Assembly: GCF_020177375.1 (NCBI RefSeq)
Contig: NZ_JAIWHV010000001.1
Coordinates: 186,001 to 250,000 of the forward strand
Source of the DNA: Saliphagus infecundisoli
GTDB taxonomy: Archaea; Halobacteriota; Halobacteria; Halobacteriales; Natrialbaceae
Reading direction: 5' to 3'
Length of the DNA stretch: 64,000 nt
The notes under the pieces were generated by a model. That model ran no database searches. It was not told the DNA's origin and was given only the letters and a program-made list of their open reading frames with translations. Both the position numbers and the translations under genes were made by a program. This document shows, in pieces, positions 26,563 to 34,840 of this stretch. Position 1 is the first letter of the stretch. Each line of letters opens with the position of its first letter.

Positions 26563-28377
26563 TCAGGGCGCGTAGTAGTACTCGCCCTCGCGTTTCTGCT
26601 GGCTGTCAAGTTGCGAGCCGGGCTTGTTGATCCGGGGTCGGGACGTCCGCTCGTCCCGGCGGAAGGTCACCTCCAGGTTCGCGAGGAAGTCGTTCATCCC
26701 CGAACGCATCGCCTGGGGAGTGCCCGCGTGACCCTCCACGGCGGGTTCGCCCTCGAAGACCATCAGCCGGTCTGCGAGCAGGTCGATCATGTAGATGTCG
26801 TGATCGATGACCAGCACCGTCGCGTCCTGTTGTTCTGCGTACCGCCGGATCGCGCGGGTCGCCTGGACCCGCTGTTCGACGTCCAAGTGGGCGGAGGGCT
26901 CGTCGAGCAGGTAGAGGTCGGCCGACTCCGAGAGGCAGGCCGCGATCGCGACCCGCTGGCGCTCGCCGCCCGAGAGGTCCGAGAGGTTCTGCTCCATGAT
27001 GCGCTCGAGCTGGAGCGGTTGGGCGATCTCGGTGGTCCAGTACGAGGAGCCGAACTGGTCGGTGATCGAGGAGAGAAAGGCGTCCACCCGCATCCGCTGG
27101 TCGATCGTGACGTACTGGGGTTTGTAGGAGATGTCCAGATCGAGGTCGGCGTCTCCCTCGTCGGGTTCCAGCTCTCCCGTCAGCAACCGGGCGAACGTGG
27201 ACTTCCCGATCCCGTTCGGGCCGACGATCCCCAGGACCTCATTCTCGTGGATCTCGCCGCCCTCGACGGTAAGGGAGAACTCGCCGTCGCCGTAGGACTT
27301 CGAGATATCGGGGTAGGAGACCAGAGTGTCGCCGCGTTCGACGGTCCGGGGGGCGTGTTCCTCGAACCCGATCGCCTCGGGGCGGATCCGCATGTTCTCG
27401 TTGTCGAGGTAGCCCCCGAGGTACTCGTTGATTCCATTGCGGACGGATTTCGGCGAGGTGATCACGCCGTAGGCGCCGGGTTCGCCGTAGGCGACGTGGA
27501 GGGTGTCCGCGAGCAGGTCGAGGATCGCGAGGTCGTGTTCGACGACCAGCATCGACTTGTCCTCCTCGGCGGCGAGTTCCCGGATCAGCCGTGCGGCGAT
27601 CACCCGCTGGCCGATGTCGAGGTAGGGGGTGATCTCGTCTAAGAAGTAGAAGTCGGTGTCCCGCGCCAGGGTCGCGGCGAGCGCGACCCGCTGGAGTTCG
27701 CCGCCCGAGAGGTCATCGATCGCCTGGTCGAGTACGGGTTCGATCGAGAGCCGGGAGGCGAGTTCCTCCAAGACGCCGCGTTCGTCCGCCCTTTCGAGCA
27801 ACTCGCGGGTGTTGCCCTCGAACTGCTCGGGGATCTGATCGACGTACTGTGGTTTGCGTGCGACGGTGATCTCGCCGTCGCGGATCGACTCGATGTAGTC
27901 CTGCAGTTCGGTCCCTCGATAGGCATCCAGAACCGCGTCCCAGCCCGGCGGCTCTTCGTGTTCGCCCAGGTTGGGCTCGAGTTCGCCCGCCAGGATCCGG
28001 ACGGCGGTCGTTTTCCCGATGCCGTTGGGTCCCAGAATGCCCGTCACCTTCCCCTCCTCGGGGACGGGAAGCCCGTAGAGCGCGAAGGCGTTCTCGCCGT
28101 AGCGGTGGGCCGGCTGGTCGTCGAGTTCCTGGGGGAGATTGAGGATCTCGATGGCGTCGAAGGGACACTTCTCGACGCAGATCCCGCAGGTCTCGCCCAG
28201 ACAGATCTCCTCGCTGATCCGGATCTGGTCGGGTTGGCCCTCCGCCGTCTCCTCGCCCCGGAGGGTGATACACTCCTTGCCCGTTCGATTCGGCGGACAG
28301 AAGTTCTTGCACTCGTAGTTACACCGGTCGGGCTGACACCGGTCGAGATCGACGACGGCGATGCTGTCGTCGGCCAT
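26563..28377 (-). CDS. ABCE1/RLI ribosome-recycling ATPase
   Basis: 604 residues. It splits ribosomes after termination, working with aPelota/aRF1. The N-terminus has cysteine motifs for two [4Fe-4S] clusters (DLDRCQPDRCNYECKNFC and CLGETCGICVEKCP). Two ABC domains follow, each with a Walker A (GPNGIGKTTA; GPNGIGKSTF) and a signature (LSGGELQRVA; LSGGERQRVA). A hinge region links them. The ATG at 28377 overlaps the stop of the upstream EMC6-like gene by one base (TGATG), so the two are translationally coupled. Confidence 0.96.
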   Translation of the reverse strand: MADDSIAVVDLDRCQPDRCNYECKNFCPPNRTGKECITLRGEETAEGQPDQIRISEEICLGETCGICVEKCPFDAIEILNLPQELDDQPAHRYGENAFALYGLPVPEEGKVTGILGPNGIGKTTAVRILAGELEPNLGEHEEPPGWDAVLDAYRGTELQDYIESIRDGEITVARKPQYVDQIPEQFEGNTRELLERADERGVLEELASRLSIEPVLDQAIDDLSGGELQRVALAATLARDTDFYFLDEITPYLDIGQRVIAARLIRELAAEEDKSMLVVEHDLAILDLLADTLHVAYGEPGAYGVITSPKSVRNGINEYLGGYLDNENMRIRPEAIGFEEHAPRTVERGDTLVSYPDISKSYGDGEFSLTVEGGEIHENEVLGIVGPNGIGKSTFARLLTGELEPDEGDADLDLDISYKPQYVTIDQRMRVDAFLSSITDQFGSSYWTTEIAQPLQLERIMEQNLSDLSGGERQRVAIAACLSESADLYLLDEPSAHLDVEQRVQATRAIRRYAEQQDATVLVIDHDIYMIDLLADRLMVFEGEPAVEGHAGTPQAMRSGMNDFLANLEVTFRRDERTSRPRINKPGSQLDSQQKREGEYYYAP

Positions 28378-28700
28378 CAGCCCGTGTACTCCGTCGTGAG
28401 CAGGATTCCCCACGTGATGAACCACAGCGAGAAGGTCATCAGGGTGATGAAGAGGTAGTGTTTGACCCCGAACTCATCGTCGCCGTAGATTCCGAGCGCC
28501 TGGATCAGCGGGAACTGGAGGACGATCGTCCCGACGACGATCAGGAGCGCCCGGGTGTCGGTCGCGGCCGTCGCCGGCGCGGCGTCGCCCGTGATGATCG
28601 AGGAGGCGATCGCCGCCCCGATGCCGAGCAGAGCCGCGAACGACGTCACGCCGATCGAGCGGACGTGCTCGCGTCGGTCGCTGAGCGATTCGGTCGCCAT
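28377..28700 (-). CDS. EMC6-like three-helix membrane protein
   Basis: 107 residues with helices near 18-38, 52-72 and 82-102 and a short basic N-terminus (SLSDRREHVRSIG). Size and layout match archaeal EMC6-like proteins, found in the eukaryotic ER membrane complex that inserts membrane proteins. I rely on topology and the conserved ABCE1 linkage, since motifs are weak. The ATG at 28700 is favoured over 28727 because it sits just before the conserved basic stretch. Confidence 0.65.
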   Translation of the reverse strand: MATESLSDRREHVRSIGVTSFAALLGIGAAIASSIITGDAAPATAATDTRALLIVVGTIVLQFPLIQALGIYGDDEFGVKHYLFITLMTFSLWFITWGILLTTEYTG

Positions 28701-28785
28701 GTCCGTGAGTCCGACCCGGGCGTTCAAAAGCCGTTCGGGTTCGCTGGCGAGCCCTCCCGCGCCGACGGAACGCGACCGTCCCCTT

Positions 28786-28815: not shown

Positions 28816-29970
28816 ATGGTGCGGAGATCCCGGTCGCGGTCGCGCGGGGGCGGGGGAGCCCTTTCCCGCCGGGCCCTTCTCGGCGGCGGAGTGGTCGCCG
28901 TCGGTGGGGCCGGACTCGTGGCCCGCTCGGGCGCGTTCTCACAGAGCACTGCGACCCGGGAGGCGAGCATCGACTCTGCCGGCGACGACGAGGCGTTGGT
29001 CGGGGTCGCGGTCGCGTCCGTCGTCGCCGGGGAGGACGACCAGGAACTGGCGACGATCACGAACAACGCGGGCCGGGAGCTCTCGGTCACGGTGACGCTT
29101 GCCGACCCCGAGGACGGCGAGGTCGGAGAGCCGGCGGCGACGATCGGGCCCGACGACGAGCACACGTTTTCAGTTTCAGTCGCCCGGGGCATCGATACCG
29201 GTGAGAAGGCACTCCCGTTCGATATCGAGGCGACCGGCGACGACTCCTTTCACGCCACGATGGAACGGCGGGCGGACGTCGAGGCGGGCGAGGAGCCCGG
29301 CGAGCCGACCCTCAAGCGGAAGATTATCGACGAGACGAAGAACACCAACGCCGCGTTCACCATCGAGTACGACGTCGAATCGGTGGCCGACTTCGACCGC
29401 CTCGAACTGGACGTCGAGAACGCGAGCGTCGGCTGGATCGCGGGCGAGTCGTTCGTCCGCGAGAGCCCCGAGGGCGTGCTCTCCTATCCCTCGAGCGGCC
29501 ACGACGGCGGCGCCGAGGGCCACACCTACACGTTCACGTTCCGGGTCTACGACTCGAACGGGGTAGTGCTCACCCGAAGCACCGAACGGGTCGCCGGCGA
29601 GGAGAGCGACGACGACGACGGGATCGGCGGCGCGGACGACCCCGAGCTCGAGTGGTTCGCCGTCGAGGACGACAGCAGCCCCCAGCACGGGACGACGCTG
29701 GCAGTCGAGTACCAGACCGCCGTCGCCGATCCCGACCGGTTCGGGTCGGTCCGCGTCGAGTTCGACACCGACGCCGATCCGGGCGGACACTGGGCCGACG
29801 AGACGATCTACGGCGAGGGGTCGAGCGATACCGTGACCCACACGAGGGACGGCACCGTCGGCTCGACCTACGAGGTGACCGTCGCCGTCGAACGACCCAG
29901 CGGGGTCACGGTCGACTCGGGGACGGTCACGATCGAATCGGGCTCGAACGAGACGATCGACTGGCCGTAG
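28816..29970 (+). CDS. Exported multi-domain protein with SipW-type signal region
   Basis: 384 residues. The N-terminus has a basic arginine-rich tail, then SRRALLGGG and a hydrophobic core to about residue 36, followed by the SGAFSQ motif (38-43). That motif recurs in the DUF1102 protein at 30764, with the same AGD..AL spacing afterwards. The rest looks like three beta-sandwich, Ig-like modules (about 50-155, 160-265, 275-384) separated by acidic linkers. No enzyme motif. It is probably processed by the signal peptidase encoded at 32025 and may be a matrix or filament-associated protein. The assignment rests on the shared signal and position. Confidence 0.7.
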   Translation: MVRRSRSRSRGGGGALSRRALLGGGVVAVGGAGLVARSGAFSQSTATREASIDSAGDDEALVGVAVASVVAGEDDQELATITNNAGRELSVTVTLADPEDGEVGEPAATIGPDDEHTFSVSVARGIDTGEKALPFDIEATGDDSFHATMERRADVEAGEEPGEPTLKRKIIDETKNTNAAFTIEYDVESVADFDRLELDVENASVGWIAGESFVRESPEGVLSYPSSGHDGGAEGHTYTFTFRVYDSNGVVLTRSTERVAGEESDDDDGIGGADDPELEWFAVEDDSSPQHGTTLAVEYQTAVADPDRFGSVRVEFDTDADPGGHWADETIYGEGSSDTVTHTRDGTVGSTYEVTVAVERPSGVTVDSGTVTIESGSNETIDWP

Positions 29971-29999
29971 TCGCTCGGTTTTCCCGTTCGAACGTCGGA

Positions 30000-30587
30000 C
30001 TACGGCGGCCGATCGCCGGCTCCGAGCCGGCTCCGGCGGTTCTCGACGGTGTGGACGGCCGCCGATATCCCGAAGAGCGCGACGAGCAGCGTCGCCCAGC
30101 CGAGGGTCGGAACGGTCTCGGTGGGGACGACCTCGAGCCAGAGGCCGGCGATCACGGCGCCCGCGACCGCCGAGAGTCCGAGGTAGTAGACGCCCCAGGG
30201 GATCGAGTCGCCGGGAACGATGTCGAGATAGACGTCGAGGTCGGCGGCGGAGTCGGTGAGTGCGATCGTCCGGTCGTCGAACTCGACCATGTTCGCGCGT
30301 TCGAGGGTCGGCAGGTGGGTCTGCTGGAGGGAGGTGTAGACCCGCTTTCGCTCGGCGGAAGTGAGTTCCGCGACCTCCTTGTCGAGTTCCCAGGCCGCGA
30401 CGTGCTCGGCGAGGTCGCCGAGTTCCACGGGGTCGTCCTGCTGTTTGCAGTAGTGGATCGCGTACCGCCGGCGGTGGTTGCTGAGCAGGTCGAAGATCTC
30501 GCCGCGGGTCGGCCGGTCGTCCGTTTCGGACTCCGGGCCCGGGGCCGATTCGTTTTCACCCTTCTCCTTCCCTTCTGTCAGCGCCAT
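30000..30587 (-). CDS. HTH regulator (DUF7344-like) with two membrane helices
   Basis: 195 residues. A winged-helix domain (about 25-115) begins EIFDLLSNHRRRYAIHYC and includes a second helical part with SLQQTHLPTLERANMVEF. Two hydrophobic helices follow (about 140-160 and 165-183). The start at 30587 has GAGGAG close upstream. It is divergent from the DUF1102 gene and convergent with the 28816 gene, so it sits inside the export locus and is the obvious candidate regulator. Membrane tethering would suit sensing of the cell surface, but that is inference. Confidence 0.75.
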   Translation of the reverse strand: MALTEGKEKGENESAPGPESETDDRPTRGEIFDLLSNHRRRYAIHYCKQQDDPVELGDLAEHVAAWELDKEVAELTSAERKRVYTSLQQTHLPTLERANMVEFDDRTIALTDSAADLDVYLDIVPGDSIPWGVYYLGLSAVAGAVIAGLWLEVVPTETVPTLGWATLLVALFGISAAVHTVENRRSRLGAGDRPP

Positions 30588-30763
30588 CGACTCCTCACTT
30601 TTCGTGAAAATCAGACGGGAGAGGTATAAGTCTAGCGACCGTTCCGGCACCGTTTCGGCAACAGTTGTCGGAGAAAGGCCGGCTTGAAACGGCTCTGGCC
30701 CGGCCAGACGACGTTCTGGCGACTCAATACAAAGGGGAGTGGGTCCCAAGGAGGGGATACACC
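30588..30763. promoter_or_regulatory. Divergent promoter region of the SipW/TasA-like locus
   Basis: 176 bases between two divergent starts. On the minus strand ACTTATACC (about 30623-30631) is an A-box for the regulator. On the plus side AAGGAGGGG (30749-30757) is a strong Shine-Dalgarno sequence about 7 bases before the ATG at 30764, so this gene has a leader, unlike most neighbours. An AT-richer CTCAATACAAAG (30723-30734) precedes it. Any operator for the regulator would lie here; I see no clear palindrome. Confidence 0.5.
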
Positions 30764-31243
30764 ATGAGGATGAACAGACGGAACGTGCTCGCGGGAATCG
30801 GTATGACGGTCGTTGCCGGCGGCGGCGCCCTCGCGTCGGGCGCGTTCAGCCAGGTGGAAGCGGATCGATCGGTGAGCGTCACCACGGCGGGCGACGGGAG
30901 CGCACTCCTCCAGTTCGACGTCGACGACAGCTACAACGGGATCGACGACACTGGTGACGGGGTAGTCGCCCTCACGTTCCAGGACATCAACCAGGACGCA
31001 GTGACGACCTTCGAGGGCGCGCTGACCGTCACCAACAACGGGAGCGACGACGTGTCGCTCTCGGCCTCGAACGTCCCGGCCGCGATCACGTTTACGGATG
31101 CGAACGGAACGGATCTCGCGAACGGCGTGGATATACCGTCCGGCGGAAACAGCGCGAACTTCGACATCGAGATCGATCTGGTCGACAACTCCGAGCCGAG
31201 CGACCAGGACATCACGTTCAACGCCCAGGCCCAGAGCAACTGA
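30764..31243 (+). CDS. DUF1102/TasA-like exported subunit
   Basis: 159 residues. A double-arginine start (MNRRNVLAG) and hydrophobic core lead to SGAFSQVEADR at residues 25-35. The mature protein is almost all beta-strand: repeated strands with Asn/Asp/Ser, no cysteine, and an ending NAQAQSN. Family knowledge: DUF1102/camelysin-type proteins are processed by a SipW-like signal peptidase, and related TasA (Bacillus) and AbpA (Pyrobaculum) polymerise by donor-strand exchange of the mature N-terminus into matrix fibres or bundling pili. The strong ribosome-binding site suggests high expression. Filament formation here is inference. Confidence 0.8.
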   Translation: MRMNRRNVLAGIGMTVVAGGGALASGAFSQVEADRSVSVTTAGDGSALLQFDVDDSYNGIDDTGDGVVALTFQDINQDAVTTFEGALTVTNNGSDDVSLSASNVPAAITFTDANGTDLANGVDIPSGGNSANFDIEIDLVDNSEPSDQDITFNAQAQSN

Positions 31244-31307
31244 GCCTCCCGTCACCGACTTCCTTCGTCGGTGAACCGACCGCAAGATCGATCGGATAAT
31301 ACATCCA

Positions 31308-31889
31308 ATGTCCCGAAACACTCGTTTCCTGGCCCTGCTCGCCGTCGTGACGGGCACCACCTTCATCGTGCTCGGTCTGGCGGTGCCGACGGGAGCGATC
31401 GTTTCGGGAGCGCCCGACGAGGGTCGGTCGAGAGCCGTCGCCCTCGAGCCCACCTCCGACCACGCCGGACTCTCAGGGGACGAACTCGTCGTCGAACTCG
31501 CTAGTGTGAACAGGGACGCGACCTCGAGGTTCGACAGCGTCTTCACGATCACCGCCCGGGAAGCGGGAGCGATCCGCCTCGAGACCGACGTCGAGGGCGT
31601 CGCCTTCCATCGGGATGGGCAAGCCATCGCACCGGAGGAACCCCTCCGGCTCGAGGCCGGCGAGACCGTCCCGGTGGGGGTGATCGTCGAGACGGCCGAC
31701 GCCGACCCCGAGGGCGGGACGTTCACGGTCTACGTCGAGGGCGAGTCCACGGCACCGACCTACGCCGTCGGCAGCCGGATCTTCACGGATCGGTTGACCG
31801 CGCTGGTCGCCGTTCCGATCGCCGTCGGGCTCCTCTCGGTCGCCGGGCTCGTCCGCCGTCGCCGGGATCTCTGGCCCGTGCTCCCGTGA
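31308..31889 (+). CDS. Exported protein with C-terminal membrane anchor in the SipW locus
   Basis: 193 residues. Signal-like helix at about 8-30, a beta-rich extracellular part (35-160), and a terminal helix (165-183) followed by arginines (VRRRRDL), so the bulk faces outside and is anchored at its end. It lacks the SGAFSQ motif. Located between the TasA-like subunit and the signal peptidase, it could anchor or nucleate a filament, by analogy with TapA; there is no direct sequence similarity to show that. No cysteine pair or enzyme motif. Confidence 0.7.
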   Translation: MSRNTRFLALLAVVTGTTFIVLGLAVPTGAIVSGAPDEGRSRAVALEPTSDHAGLSGDELVVELASVNRDATSRFDSVFTITAREAGAIRLETDVEGVAFHRDGQAIAPEEPLRLEAGETVPVGVIVETADADPEGGTFTVYVEGESTAPTYAVGSRIFTDRLTALVAVPIAVGLLSVAGLVRRRRDLWPVLP

Positions 31890-32024
31890 TAGCGGCCGAA
31901 ACGTTCATCCGACCTGACACGGTAGCCATCGCCGGAGCAGACGGATGGACGGACTGAGAGGAGACGAATCGTCGCGGCCGATCGCCGGGCGGAGAGTGCC
32001 GGACGGGGAGCACCGGGGACGGCG

Positions 32025-33182
32025 ATGAGCGGCGGAAGCCTCCTCGGAAAACTGTTCACGATCGTTTTCGCGATCGTTCTCCTCTCGCTGGTCGTCGGGC
32101 AGGTGCTGGGCCAGCCGATACTCCTTGGATACGTCACGACGGGGAGCATGGAGCCGACGATTGACGCCGGCGACGGCTTCGTCGCGATCCCGGCGGCGGT
32201 GACGGGCGAGCCCGAACCCGGAGACGTCGTCACCTTCGAGGCGACCGAACTCCACGACGGCGGGCTAACGACCCACCGGATCGTCGGCGAGGCCGAGGGA
32301 GGGTACGTCACCCAGGGCGACGCCAACCCCTTCACCGATCAGGACGGCGGGGAGCCGCCCGTTACTGAGGGACAGATCGTCGCGAGCGCCCTCCAGGTCG
32401 GGGACACCGTCGTGACGATCCCCCACCTCGGGACCGCGGTCATGGGGATCGGGTCGGTCCTCGAGACCGGATACGCCGCCGTCGCCTCGACGCTCGGCTT
32501 CACGACGACGCCCGACGGCGAGGGCGGCGGGGCGGTGCTGGTCGGTCTCGGGGTCGTTCTGGTCGGCCTCGGCGCCCTCTTTGGTTCCGGCCGGGACGTC
32601 GGCCGTTCGACGGCCCGGGAGAACGTGCTCGCGGTCCGGGTCGCGATCGCAGCCGTCCTCGTCGTTTTCGTCGCCGTCGCGACGGTCGCGATGGTCGTCC
32701 CCGCGGGGGTCTACGAGTACGAGGTCGTGAGCACGACCGAGCCGACCGACGATCCCCAGGTGCTCGCACCCGGCGAGTCCGGCGAGCTGGCCCGGACCGT
32801 CGACAACGCGGGCTTCGTTCCGACCGTCGCCATCGTCGAACCGCAGAGCCTCGGGATCGCCTCCGAGCCCGACCGCCTGACCGTCGGCGCCCGGGGGGAG
32901 GCCGAGACGACGGTCACGCTGACCGCGCCTGAGGAGGAAGGCGAGTACGTCCGCCACGTCGGCGAGTACCGCTACCTGCTCGTCCTCCCGCCGTCGGTCC
33001 TCGCCGCGCTCCACGGCGTCCACCCGCTCGTCGCGATCGCCGCCGTCGACGCCGTCGTCGTCGCCGTCGTCGTCGTGACGATGGTCGCGCTCCTGGGATC
33101 GGGTGATCTCCGATTTCGCCGGCCCGGCGGGAACGTCCCCGCCAGGCGCCGCCTCGAGCGCAAACTCCGGAAGTGGCGCTGA
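32025..33182 (+). CDS. SipW/Sec11-type signal peptidase I with extra extracellular domain
   Basis: 385 residues. Helix 1 is at about 8-30. The catalytic part has Ser41 in TTGSMEPTI and His84 in LTTHRIVG in place of the bacterial Lys, plus GDAN (Asp99); this Ser/His pattern marks the ER/archaeal/SipW class. Beyond the usual end (about 150) come two helices (near 167-187 and 205-228), a beta-rich domain of about 90 residues (230-318) that reads like an Ig/CARDB fold, and a last helix (330-352) with a basic tail. The fused domain could present or hold substrates. Flanking exported proteins are its likely clients. Confidence 0.85.
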   Translation: MSGGSLLGKLFTIVFAIVLLSLVVGQVLGQPILLGYVTTGSMEPTIDAGDGFVAIPAAVTGEPEPGDVVTFEATELHDGGLTTHRIVGEAEGGYVTQGDANPFTDQDGGEPPVTEGQIVASALQVGDTVVTIPHLGTAVMGIGSVLETGYAAVASTLGFTTTPDGEGGGAVLVGLGVVLVGLGALFGSGRDVGRSTARENVLAVRVAIAAVLVVFVAVATVAMVVPAGVYEYEVVSTTEPTDDPQVLAPGESGELARTVDNAGFVPTVAIVEPQSLGIASEPDRLTVGARGEAETTVTLTAPEEEGEYVRHVGEYRYLLVLPPSVLAALHGVHPLVAIAAVDAVVVAVVVVTMVALLGSGDLRFRRPGGNVPARRRLERKLRKWR

Positions 33183-33204
33183 AGCGCCGTCGGCGAAACA
33201 CTAG

Positions 33205-33240
33205 TATTATATCTCGTGAATGTCTGTAATTGAGTATACT
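33205..33240 (+). promoter_or_regulatory. AT-rich promoter candidates for the DUF5305-type gene
   Basis: TATTATAT (33205-33212) and GTATACT (33234-33240) form the most AT-rich stretch of the locus, between the signal peptidase stop and the next start. The second box is about 42 bases from the GTG, leaving room for a short leader with a ribosome-binding site. The gene may thus be expressed separately from the upstream genes. Confidence 0.5.
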
Positions 33241-33270
33241 GGTTCGGGGGACCGACTCCCCCGATTCGGG

Positions 33271-33277
33271 AGGGAGG
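33271..33277 (+). promoter_or_regulatory. Shine-Dalgarno sequence that supports a GTG start
   Basis: AGGGAGG ends four bases before the GTG at 33282. It decides the start: the GTG opens straight into a short N-terminus before a membrane helix, and no ATG in this frame lies close by. Confidence 0.6.
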
Positions 33278-33281
33278 ACAC

Positions 33282-34487
33282 GTGATCGACAACCCGCGGA
33301 TCGATCTCCTGGTCGCCAGACACGGGCGAGCGATCGCGATCGCCGCGGTCGCCGTCGGCGTCCTCGCGCTAGTCGCGACCGGCTGGGCGGCCGCGAACCC
33401 ACAGACGACGACCGCGCCCGCCGGGGTCGCCGAGGATCGCGTCGAGACCGAGGTCGCCACGAGCGCCGAGGTCGTCCGGGACGGCCTCTGGGAGTCGGGA
33501 ACGGAACTCCGGGACAACCCCCTCTACACCCGCAACGACACCCCCGTCGTCGCCGTCGAACCCCGGACGACCGTTCCCGAGGACAGCGAGGTGACGGTCG
33601 ATCACGTCGTTTCGATCTGCTACGAGGCGGTCCGCGACGAGACCGTCTTCTGGGAGGACGGTGAGGAGGTGCTGAACGAAACGGTGACCGCCGAGGGCGG
33701 CGTCGCGACCTCGAGCACCGAGATCGACGTCGAGTCGGTCGCCGACCGCCGCGAGGCGATCGAAGCGGACCTCGGCGACGTCGGGACGGTCGCGCTCTCG
33801 GTCGTCGTCGACGTCCGGTACTCGGGCGACCTCGACGGCGGCTACGAACTCTCCACGCCCCTCGCGATGGACGAGGAGGCCTACTGGTTCGAGGAATCGA
33901 TGTCGGAGTCGGTGAGCCACGACCGGGCGGCCGGAGCGGAGACCACCGAGCCCCGGAGCACGCTCGTCGCGGGATTCGGCCTGCTCGCGCTCGCGGCGTT
34001 CGGCGTCGCGGCCGTCGTCGCCCGGCGAGGAACGGTCGACCCCGACGTCGCCCGGCGCCGGCTCCACGAGCGCCGACACGCCGAGTGGATCTCCCACGGG
34101 ACGATCCCGATGTGGATCGGCGACCACCACGTCGCACTGGACACCTTAGAGGACGTCGTCGACGTTGCGATCGACACCAACGAGCGGGTGGTCCACGACC
34201 GCGACCGGGAGCTGTTCGCGGTCGTCAGCGACGACGTCGTCTACTACTACAGCGAGCGGGGCCTCTGGGAGGAGACCGCCTGGCCCGACTTCGACCTGCA
34301 AAGCGGGGAGCGCCCGCCGATGCCCGACGACGCCGGAGGGAAGACCGCGAGACCCCCGGAAATGGACGGCGGGAGCCCGGCCCTCGAGGGCGACGGCTCC
34401 GCGTCCGTTCCGGGCGGGACCGACCCGGCTTCCGACGACGACTCGCTGCCCGATCCCGACGACGACGACGCCTGGGAACAGCTCTGA
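33282..34487 (+). CDS. DUF5305-type membrane protein of the SipW locus
   Basis: 401 residues starting at GTG. One helix near residues 17-38, an extracellular beta-rich region (about 40-220) with several acidic strands, and a second helix (228-248) before a cytoplasmic domain (250-345) that contains HHVALDTLEDVVDVAIDTNERVV, then an acidic low-complexity tail. This matches the DUF5305 proteins that accompany SipW-like peptidases in haloarchaea. It may couple extracellular assembly to the cytoplasm. No enzyme motif is seen. Confidence 0.75.
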   Translation: MIDNPRIDLLVARHGRAIAIAAVAVGVLALVATGWAAANPQTTTAPAGVAEDRVETEVATSAEVVRDGLWESGTELRDNPLYTRNDTPVVAVEPRTTVPEDSEVTVDHVVSICYEAVRDETVFWEDGEEVLNETVTAEGGVATSSTEIDVESVADRREAIEADLGDVGTVALSVVVDVRYSGDLDGGYELSTPLAMDEEAYWFEESMSESVSHDRAAGAETTEPRSTLVAGFGLLALAAFGVAAVVARRGTVDPDVARRRLHERRHAEWISHGTIPMWIGDHHVALDTLEDVVDVAIDTNERVVHDRDRELFAVVSDDVVYYYSERGLWEETAWPDFDLQSGERPPMPDDAGGKTARPPEMDGGSPALEGDGSASVPGGTDPASDDDSLPDPDDDDAWEQL

Positions 34488-34543: not shown

Positions 34544-34840
34544 ATGGCCGACACCGACGGGGAGGACATGACGGACCTGCCGCCGAGCGCCAAACTCGTT
34601 TTCAAGGTGCTCGAGTACGACGGGCCCCTGACCCAGAAACAGATCGTCGAGGAATCGATGCTGTCGGCGCGAACGGTCCGCTACGCTCTCGAACGCCTCG
34701 AGGGGATCGGGATCGTCGACGAGGACATCTACTTCGCGGACGCCCGACAGAGCCTCTATCGGATCGACGAGCCGGTCGCAGCCGACGGCTACGGCGCCGA
34801 CGAGAAGCGCGAGGACGCCTGCTGTGCGGGCGGCCAGTAG
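34544..34840 (+). CDS. Small winged-helix (MarR/TrmB-like) DNA-binding protein
   Basis: 98 residues. The core (14-70) is a winged helix with LTQKQIVEESMLSARTVRYALERLEGIGIV as the recognition region, followed by a beta wing (DEDIYFADARQSLYRI). The tail ends DACCAGGQ with paired cysteines. It has its own A-box. It follows the DUF5305 gene by 56 bases and could regulate the export locus, but equally may belong to the following membrane protein gene. Ligand unknown. Confidence 0.75.
   Translation: MADTDGEDMTDLPPSAKLVFKVLEYDGPLTQKQIVEESMLSARTVRYALERLEGIGIVDEDIYFADARQSLYRIDEPVAADGYGADEKREDACCAGGQ

Follow-up and report, generated by a model that had tools for sequence, protein, structure and literature searches.

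A cluster of six genes in the genome of Saliphagus infecundisoli is probably a compact Tat-fimbria (tafi) locus that builds thin surface fibres. All six genes are intact in the 64-kb stretch of DNA that we analysed, referred to here as the window; the locus itself is real and compact, and it is from its genes that we infer fibre formation by this organism. Tat-fimbriae, with the components TafA, TafC, TafE and TafF, are cited in PMC12687288 as Galeva et al. (iScience 2025, 28:111793). The window shares with that system, within one locus, a TafE-type pilin with a Tat signal, a TafC-like protein, a TafF-like anchor, a DUF7344 regulator and a Ser/His peptidase, and the locus most likely represents a slimmed-down, ordinary member of a known system, nothing new in kind. 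The features are listed below.

28816..29970, + strand: P1, TafC-like protein of 384 aa, predicted to be Tat-exported, with a Tat signal, SGAFSQ and three tandem Ig/FN3-like domains (TafC match, AlphaFold model, FN3 matches)
30000..30587, - strand: P2, DUF7344 winged-HTH protein with two C-terminal hydrophobic/TM segments (Pfam DUF7344, E=1e-29)
30750..30754, + strand: GGAGG Shine-Dalgarno sequence before P3, with a 9-nt spacer to the ATG at 30764
30764..31243, + strand: P3, TafE-type pilin of 159 aa, probable filament subunit (NCBIfam TafE, PDB 9P0A, fold match, tree)
30764..30841, + strand: signal peptide of P3 with a twin-arginine motif (MRMNRRNVLAG...LASG), whose end is predicted to lie before A27 or F28 (invariant R5, R6, G26 and A27; modelled length of 9P0A)
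30842..30892, + strand: putative donor strand of P3, residues 27-43 (AFSQVEADRSVSVTTAG; alternating conservation, low pLDDT)
31308..31889, + strand: P4, short TafF-like protein of 193 aa with an N-terminal signal, one beta domain and a C-terminal TM (homology to longer CARDB-repeat relatives)
32025..33182, + strand: P5, Ser/His-type signal peptidase I, extended at its C-terminus by a TM-beta-TM region (TIGR02228, E=1.3e-13; SipW model, E=2.9e-8)
33282..34487, + strand: P6, DUF5305 membrane protein, conserved partner of the peptidase (Pfam DUF5305, E=9e-46)

The identification turns on P3. In profile searches P3 matches NCBIfam TafE with E=1e-27 and TafA with E=5e-10, and in our tree both P3 and the pilin of PDB entry 9P0A fall inside the TafE clade, split from TafA with support 100/100. 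That entry, titled 'Structure of Natrinema sp. J7-2 Tafi pilus', is the only sequence match of P3 in the PDB (E=3.8e-17; about 43% identity over 155 residues, the 9P0A pilin being 215 aa long against the 159 of P3), and is also the top Foldseek match of the P3 AlphaFold model (E=9e-5), albeit with modest TM-scores of 0.58/0.50. A literature search found no paper on the Natrinema pilus structure. The P3 model has a mean pLDDT of 78 overall, with a confident sandwich from approximately residue 48 to residue 156. At 97 of 155 bits P3 lies under the curated TafE equivalog cut-off, and we counted this against the tafi reading, together with the below-cut-off score of P1, the position of most P1 relatives outside taf loci, the pLDDT of 78 and the modest TM-score. 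The 9P0A pilin itself likewise scores under the TafE cut-off, at 73.5 of 155 bits, and for this reason we take the TafE and TafC cut-offs to identify orthologues of the type proteins rather than members of the system.

The gene order around P3 is conserved. Eighteen loci of P3 relatives were chosen regardless of their neighbours, and in 16 of them genes for a TafF-like protein, a signal peptidase and a DUF5305 protein come after the TafE-type pilin gene, in its orientation (one locus having extra pilin genes between); the exceptions are L015, which lies at a contig end, and L020. A DUF7344 gene stands divergently upstream in most of these loci. A second set of 19 regions was selected by TafE or TafA matches; every one of them has the peptidase, and 17 have DUF5305. 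The gene identical to 9P0A (G159:C49, 100% identity) lies in a locus that reads EMC6, DUF7344, TafE-type, TafF-like, signal peptidase, DUF5305, wHTH (L124), which is the order of the window. Canonical taf loci in which TafA and TafE score over their cut-offs (L062-L065) carry the same DUF7344 and peptidase families and, in part, DUF5305; in L062, scans for TafC and TafF likewise gave scores over cut-off. In Natrinema salsiterrestre a true TafA (212 bits) adjoins orthologues of P3-P6 (L007). Another locus (L068, G188:C3:202000-220000) holds six TafE-type or pilin-like genes with a peptidase and DUF5305, possibly a pilin expansion.

These results bear on a preliminary description of this DNA, which had proposed a locus that builds a surface fibre and encodes a peptidase, an anchor and a regulator of its own. 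The elements from which it argued (the six genes, two SGAFSQ motifs, a Ser41/His84 peptidase, a DUF5305 protein and a strong Shine-Dalgarno sequence before the gene at 30764) are all present in the sequence, and the proposal agrees with the co-location of their relatives in other haloarchaea and with a solved archaeal pilus as the best structural match of P3. It had also set beforehand, as tests, a beta-sandwich with a flexible N-terminus in P3, which the model predicts, and joint conservation of the locus genes in other genomes, which we found.

The window's genome differs from the described tafi system in having no TafA: a genome-wide profile search for TafA returned P3 itself as its sole match. 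We counted this absence too against the tafi reading, and it raises the possibility that P3 is only an adapter, the major subunit TafA having been lost to leave a short stub or a decaying locus. NCBIfam names TafE 'fimbrial adapter protein', and P4 is shortened, as such a reading would have it. However, the solved tafi pilus 9P0A belongs to the TafE clade, and its encoding genome likewise has no TafA above cut-off; the window genes are all intact; and in many relatives the only pilin at the locus is of the TafE type. We therefore regard the adapter reading as unlikely. Since the genome encoding 9P0A, with the window's gene order, has no TafA above cut-off, a lone TafE-type pilin at the locus seems to be enough for a pilus, and since that pilus was deposited as a tafi pilus, we treat TafA as not defining for Tat-fimbriae. 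Across the order, TafE-like matches occur in 118 of 195 genomes and TafA above cut-off in 11 of 195; matches in the wider phylum, sampled with 247 genomes, came from 33 genomes, all of them of the same order.

Turning to export and processing, both P1 and P3 carry twin arginines in their signals (SRRALLGG in P1, NRRNVLAG in P3), and a search of all six frames of the window finds SGAFSQ only in P1 and in P3, once in each, following a Tat-type hydrophobic signal. Across 35 aligned sequences, P3 residues R5, R6, G26, A27, A33 and R35 never vary and F28 is kept in 34, and an alignment of 35 signal peptidases shows no variation at S41 and H84 of P5; judged from these alignments, the conservation of the motifs in P3 and P5 is not chance. 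Because the twin arginine is invariant, P3 is probably exported via Tat rather than Sec. The 9P0A structure models 188 of 215 residues, which would fit a mature N-terminus near A27/F28 if its C-terminus is complete. Just beyond this point, P3 positions 31, 33, 35, 37, 39 and 41 are conserved or mostly hydrophobic (V31, A33, R35, V37, V39), with polar, more variable residues between them (n=35), and residues 28-41, most of which have pLDDT below 50 (28-30 and 32-41), lie outside the predicted sandwich. Such an alternating pattern is the one expected of a donor strand that fills a groove, and suggests that this segment acts as one.

The exported proteins could instead be cell-surface proteins that are matured by a dedicated peptidase and do not polymerise. 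Polymerisation of P3 is something that we infer, and Ig-like sandwiches are common among surface proteins; yet the closest solved relative of P3 is a pilus, and a conserved amphipathic N-terminal strand outside the fold of the P3 monomer is not what this explanation would lead one to expect, so that we think it quite improbable.

The preliminary description had called the system TasA/AbpA-like, and a true TasA/camelysin or AbpA system would be a Sec-exported, SipW-processed fibre. There is something to be said for this: the SipW model does match P5, and the A-F pair where cleavage is predicted is reminiscent of TasA, a protein with Phe at P2' that SipW, a Ser/His peptidase, processes and that E. 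coli LepB cleaves poorly (PMC10269814). The Bacillus TasA-SipW pair thus resembles the locus in combining a fibre protein, a dedicated Ser/His signal peptidase and a Phe near the cleavage site, and the invariant G-A-F site and dedicated peptidase of the locus may parallel it. TasA, however, is a Sec-exported protein of the Peptidase_M73 type with no sequence match at the locus, and we rejected TasA/camelysin membership since no Peptidase_M73 Pfam match was found at E up to 1. The archaeal bundling pilus AbpA (7UEG) is a fold neighbour of P3 (E=0.023, probability 1.00, TM 0.52/0.47), and it and the Sulfolobus thread (7PNB) share the sandwich fold, although sequence similarity of either to P3 is undetectable. 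With the match to tafi stronger and the twin arginine invariant, we hold membership of a TasA or AbpA system to be extremely improbable; of known systems, the haloarchaeal Tat-fimbria is the closest. The likeness to AbpA in the preliminary description therefore survives as a weakly supported resemblance of fold and fails as an identification of the system, and of the signals of P1 and P3 it had recognised the hydrophobic segments and overlooked the twin arginines. Since AbpA and the Sulfolobus thread are weaker fold neighbours, it is reasonable to compare the way in which P3 would work with theirs; the thread assembles by donor-strand complementation, with a subunit predicted to be Sec-exported (PMC9715654). 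A type IV pilin was also considered and rejected, neither P1 nor P3 having a Pilin_N match in Pfam.

The remaining proteins can be placed around P3 with varying assurance. P1 matches NCBIfam TafC with E=4.5e-8 over residues 27-157 only, its N-terminal third, at 33 of 410 bits and so under the cut-off. It is modelled as a TafC-like N-terminal domain followed by two more Ig/FN3-like domains, in the place where canonical TafC carries a lectin-like Laminin_G_3 domain. P1 may be a minor subunit, either tip or adapter. Its membership of the locus is less sure, because its relatives mostly lie away from taf loci: in all eight genomes inspected, which were picked by their P1 relative, that relative is outside the taf locus, and we therefore rejected P1 as an obligate member. 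In Natrarchaeobius and Halostella a P1 relative does lie inside the taf locus. Several of the P1 relatives that stand alone, away from taf loci (L112-L119), adjoin a chorismate synthase-like gene.

P4 begins with a Sec-type hydrophobic segment and consists of an N-terminal beta domain and a C-terminal TM. It is homologous to relatives of 300-408 aa in related genomes, which have one or two CARDB-like repeats between these two parts; it thus differs from canonical TafF in being short, with neither the CARDB repeats nor the linker, and from the long TafF-like neighbour of the 9P0A gene (394 aa). One of its relatives matches NCBIfam TafF (E=1e-11), while a profile search found no TafF match for P4 itself. 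P4 is a probable basal anchor. The conserved C-terminal extension of P5 (residues about 165-385) has several TM segments and no Pfam name, and could hold subunits during processing. P6 is the only DUF5305 copy in the genome, and our literature search found no account of DUF5305 together with signal peptidases.

P2, divergent from P3, is a probable membrane-bound regulator, and DUF7344 proteins occur in the majority of taf loci, among them canonical ones. The EMC6 and ABC ATPase genes upstream (26563-28727) and the wHTH gene downstream (34544-34840) are conserved neighbours across Natrialbaceae. We rejected them as parts of the system, because several Natrinema have a gene for an AMP-binding enzyme between DUF5305 and the wHTH gene. 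Many Natrialbaceae relatives also have, divergent beside the pilin genes, a gene for a protein of ~1,030 aa that matches DUF7289 at its N-terminus (in one, Pilin_N with E=3.5e-4), for example L008:4461-7559(-) and L007:2555-5638(-). This protein, possibly a type IV pilin-like giant adhesin, is missing from the window.

Taken as a tafi locus, the six genes suggest the following course of assembly. P3 and P1 would leave the cell via the Tat pathway, after which P5 would cleave the conserved G-A-F site and so release the N-terminal strand of P3, residues about 27-43. The freed strand would complete the beta-sandwich of an adjacent P3 subunit, so that P3 would form a thin fibre through donor-strand exchange, with P1 as a putative minor tip or adapter subunit and P4 as the membrane anchor at the fibre base. 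P6 may work together with P5 in assembly or processing, and P2 would regulate the divergent promoters. Tat normally transports folded proteins, and such a route raises the question of how Tat-exported pilins keep open a groove for donor-strand exchange.

We offer one generalisation tentatively, as somewhat less than an even prospect: that TafE-type pilins, not TafA, are the general filament subunit of Tat-fimbriae, and that a SipW-like peptidase acting at a TasA-like A-F site processes donor-strand pilins that are exported by Tat, not Sec. If this is true, the name 'adapter' for TafE would be valid only in lineages that added TafA. For S. infecundisoli, a previously unannotated locus can now be assigned to a class of archaeal surface fibres that was described only recently, and provides a minimal gene set (one TafE-type pilin, a short anchor, a peptidase, a DUF5305 protein and a regulator) with which to test what parts such a fibre needs.
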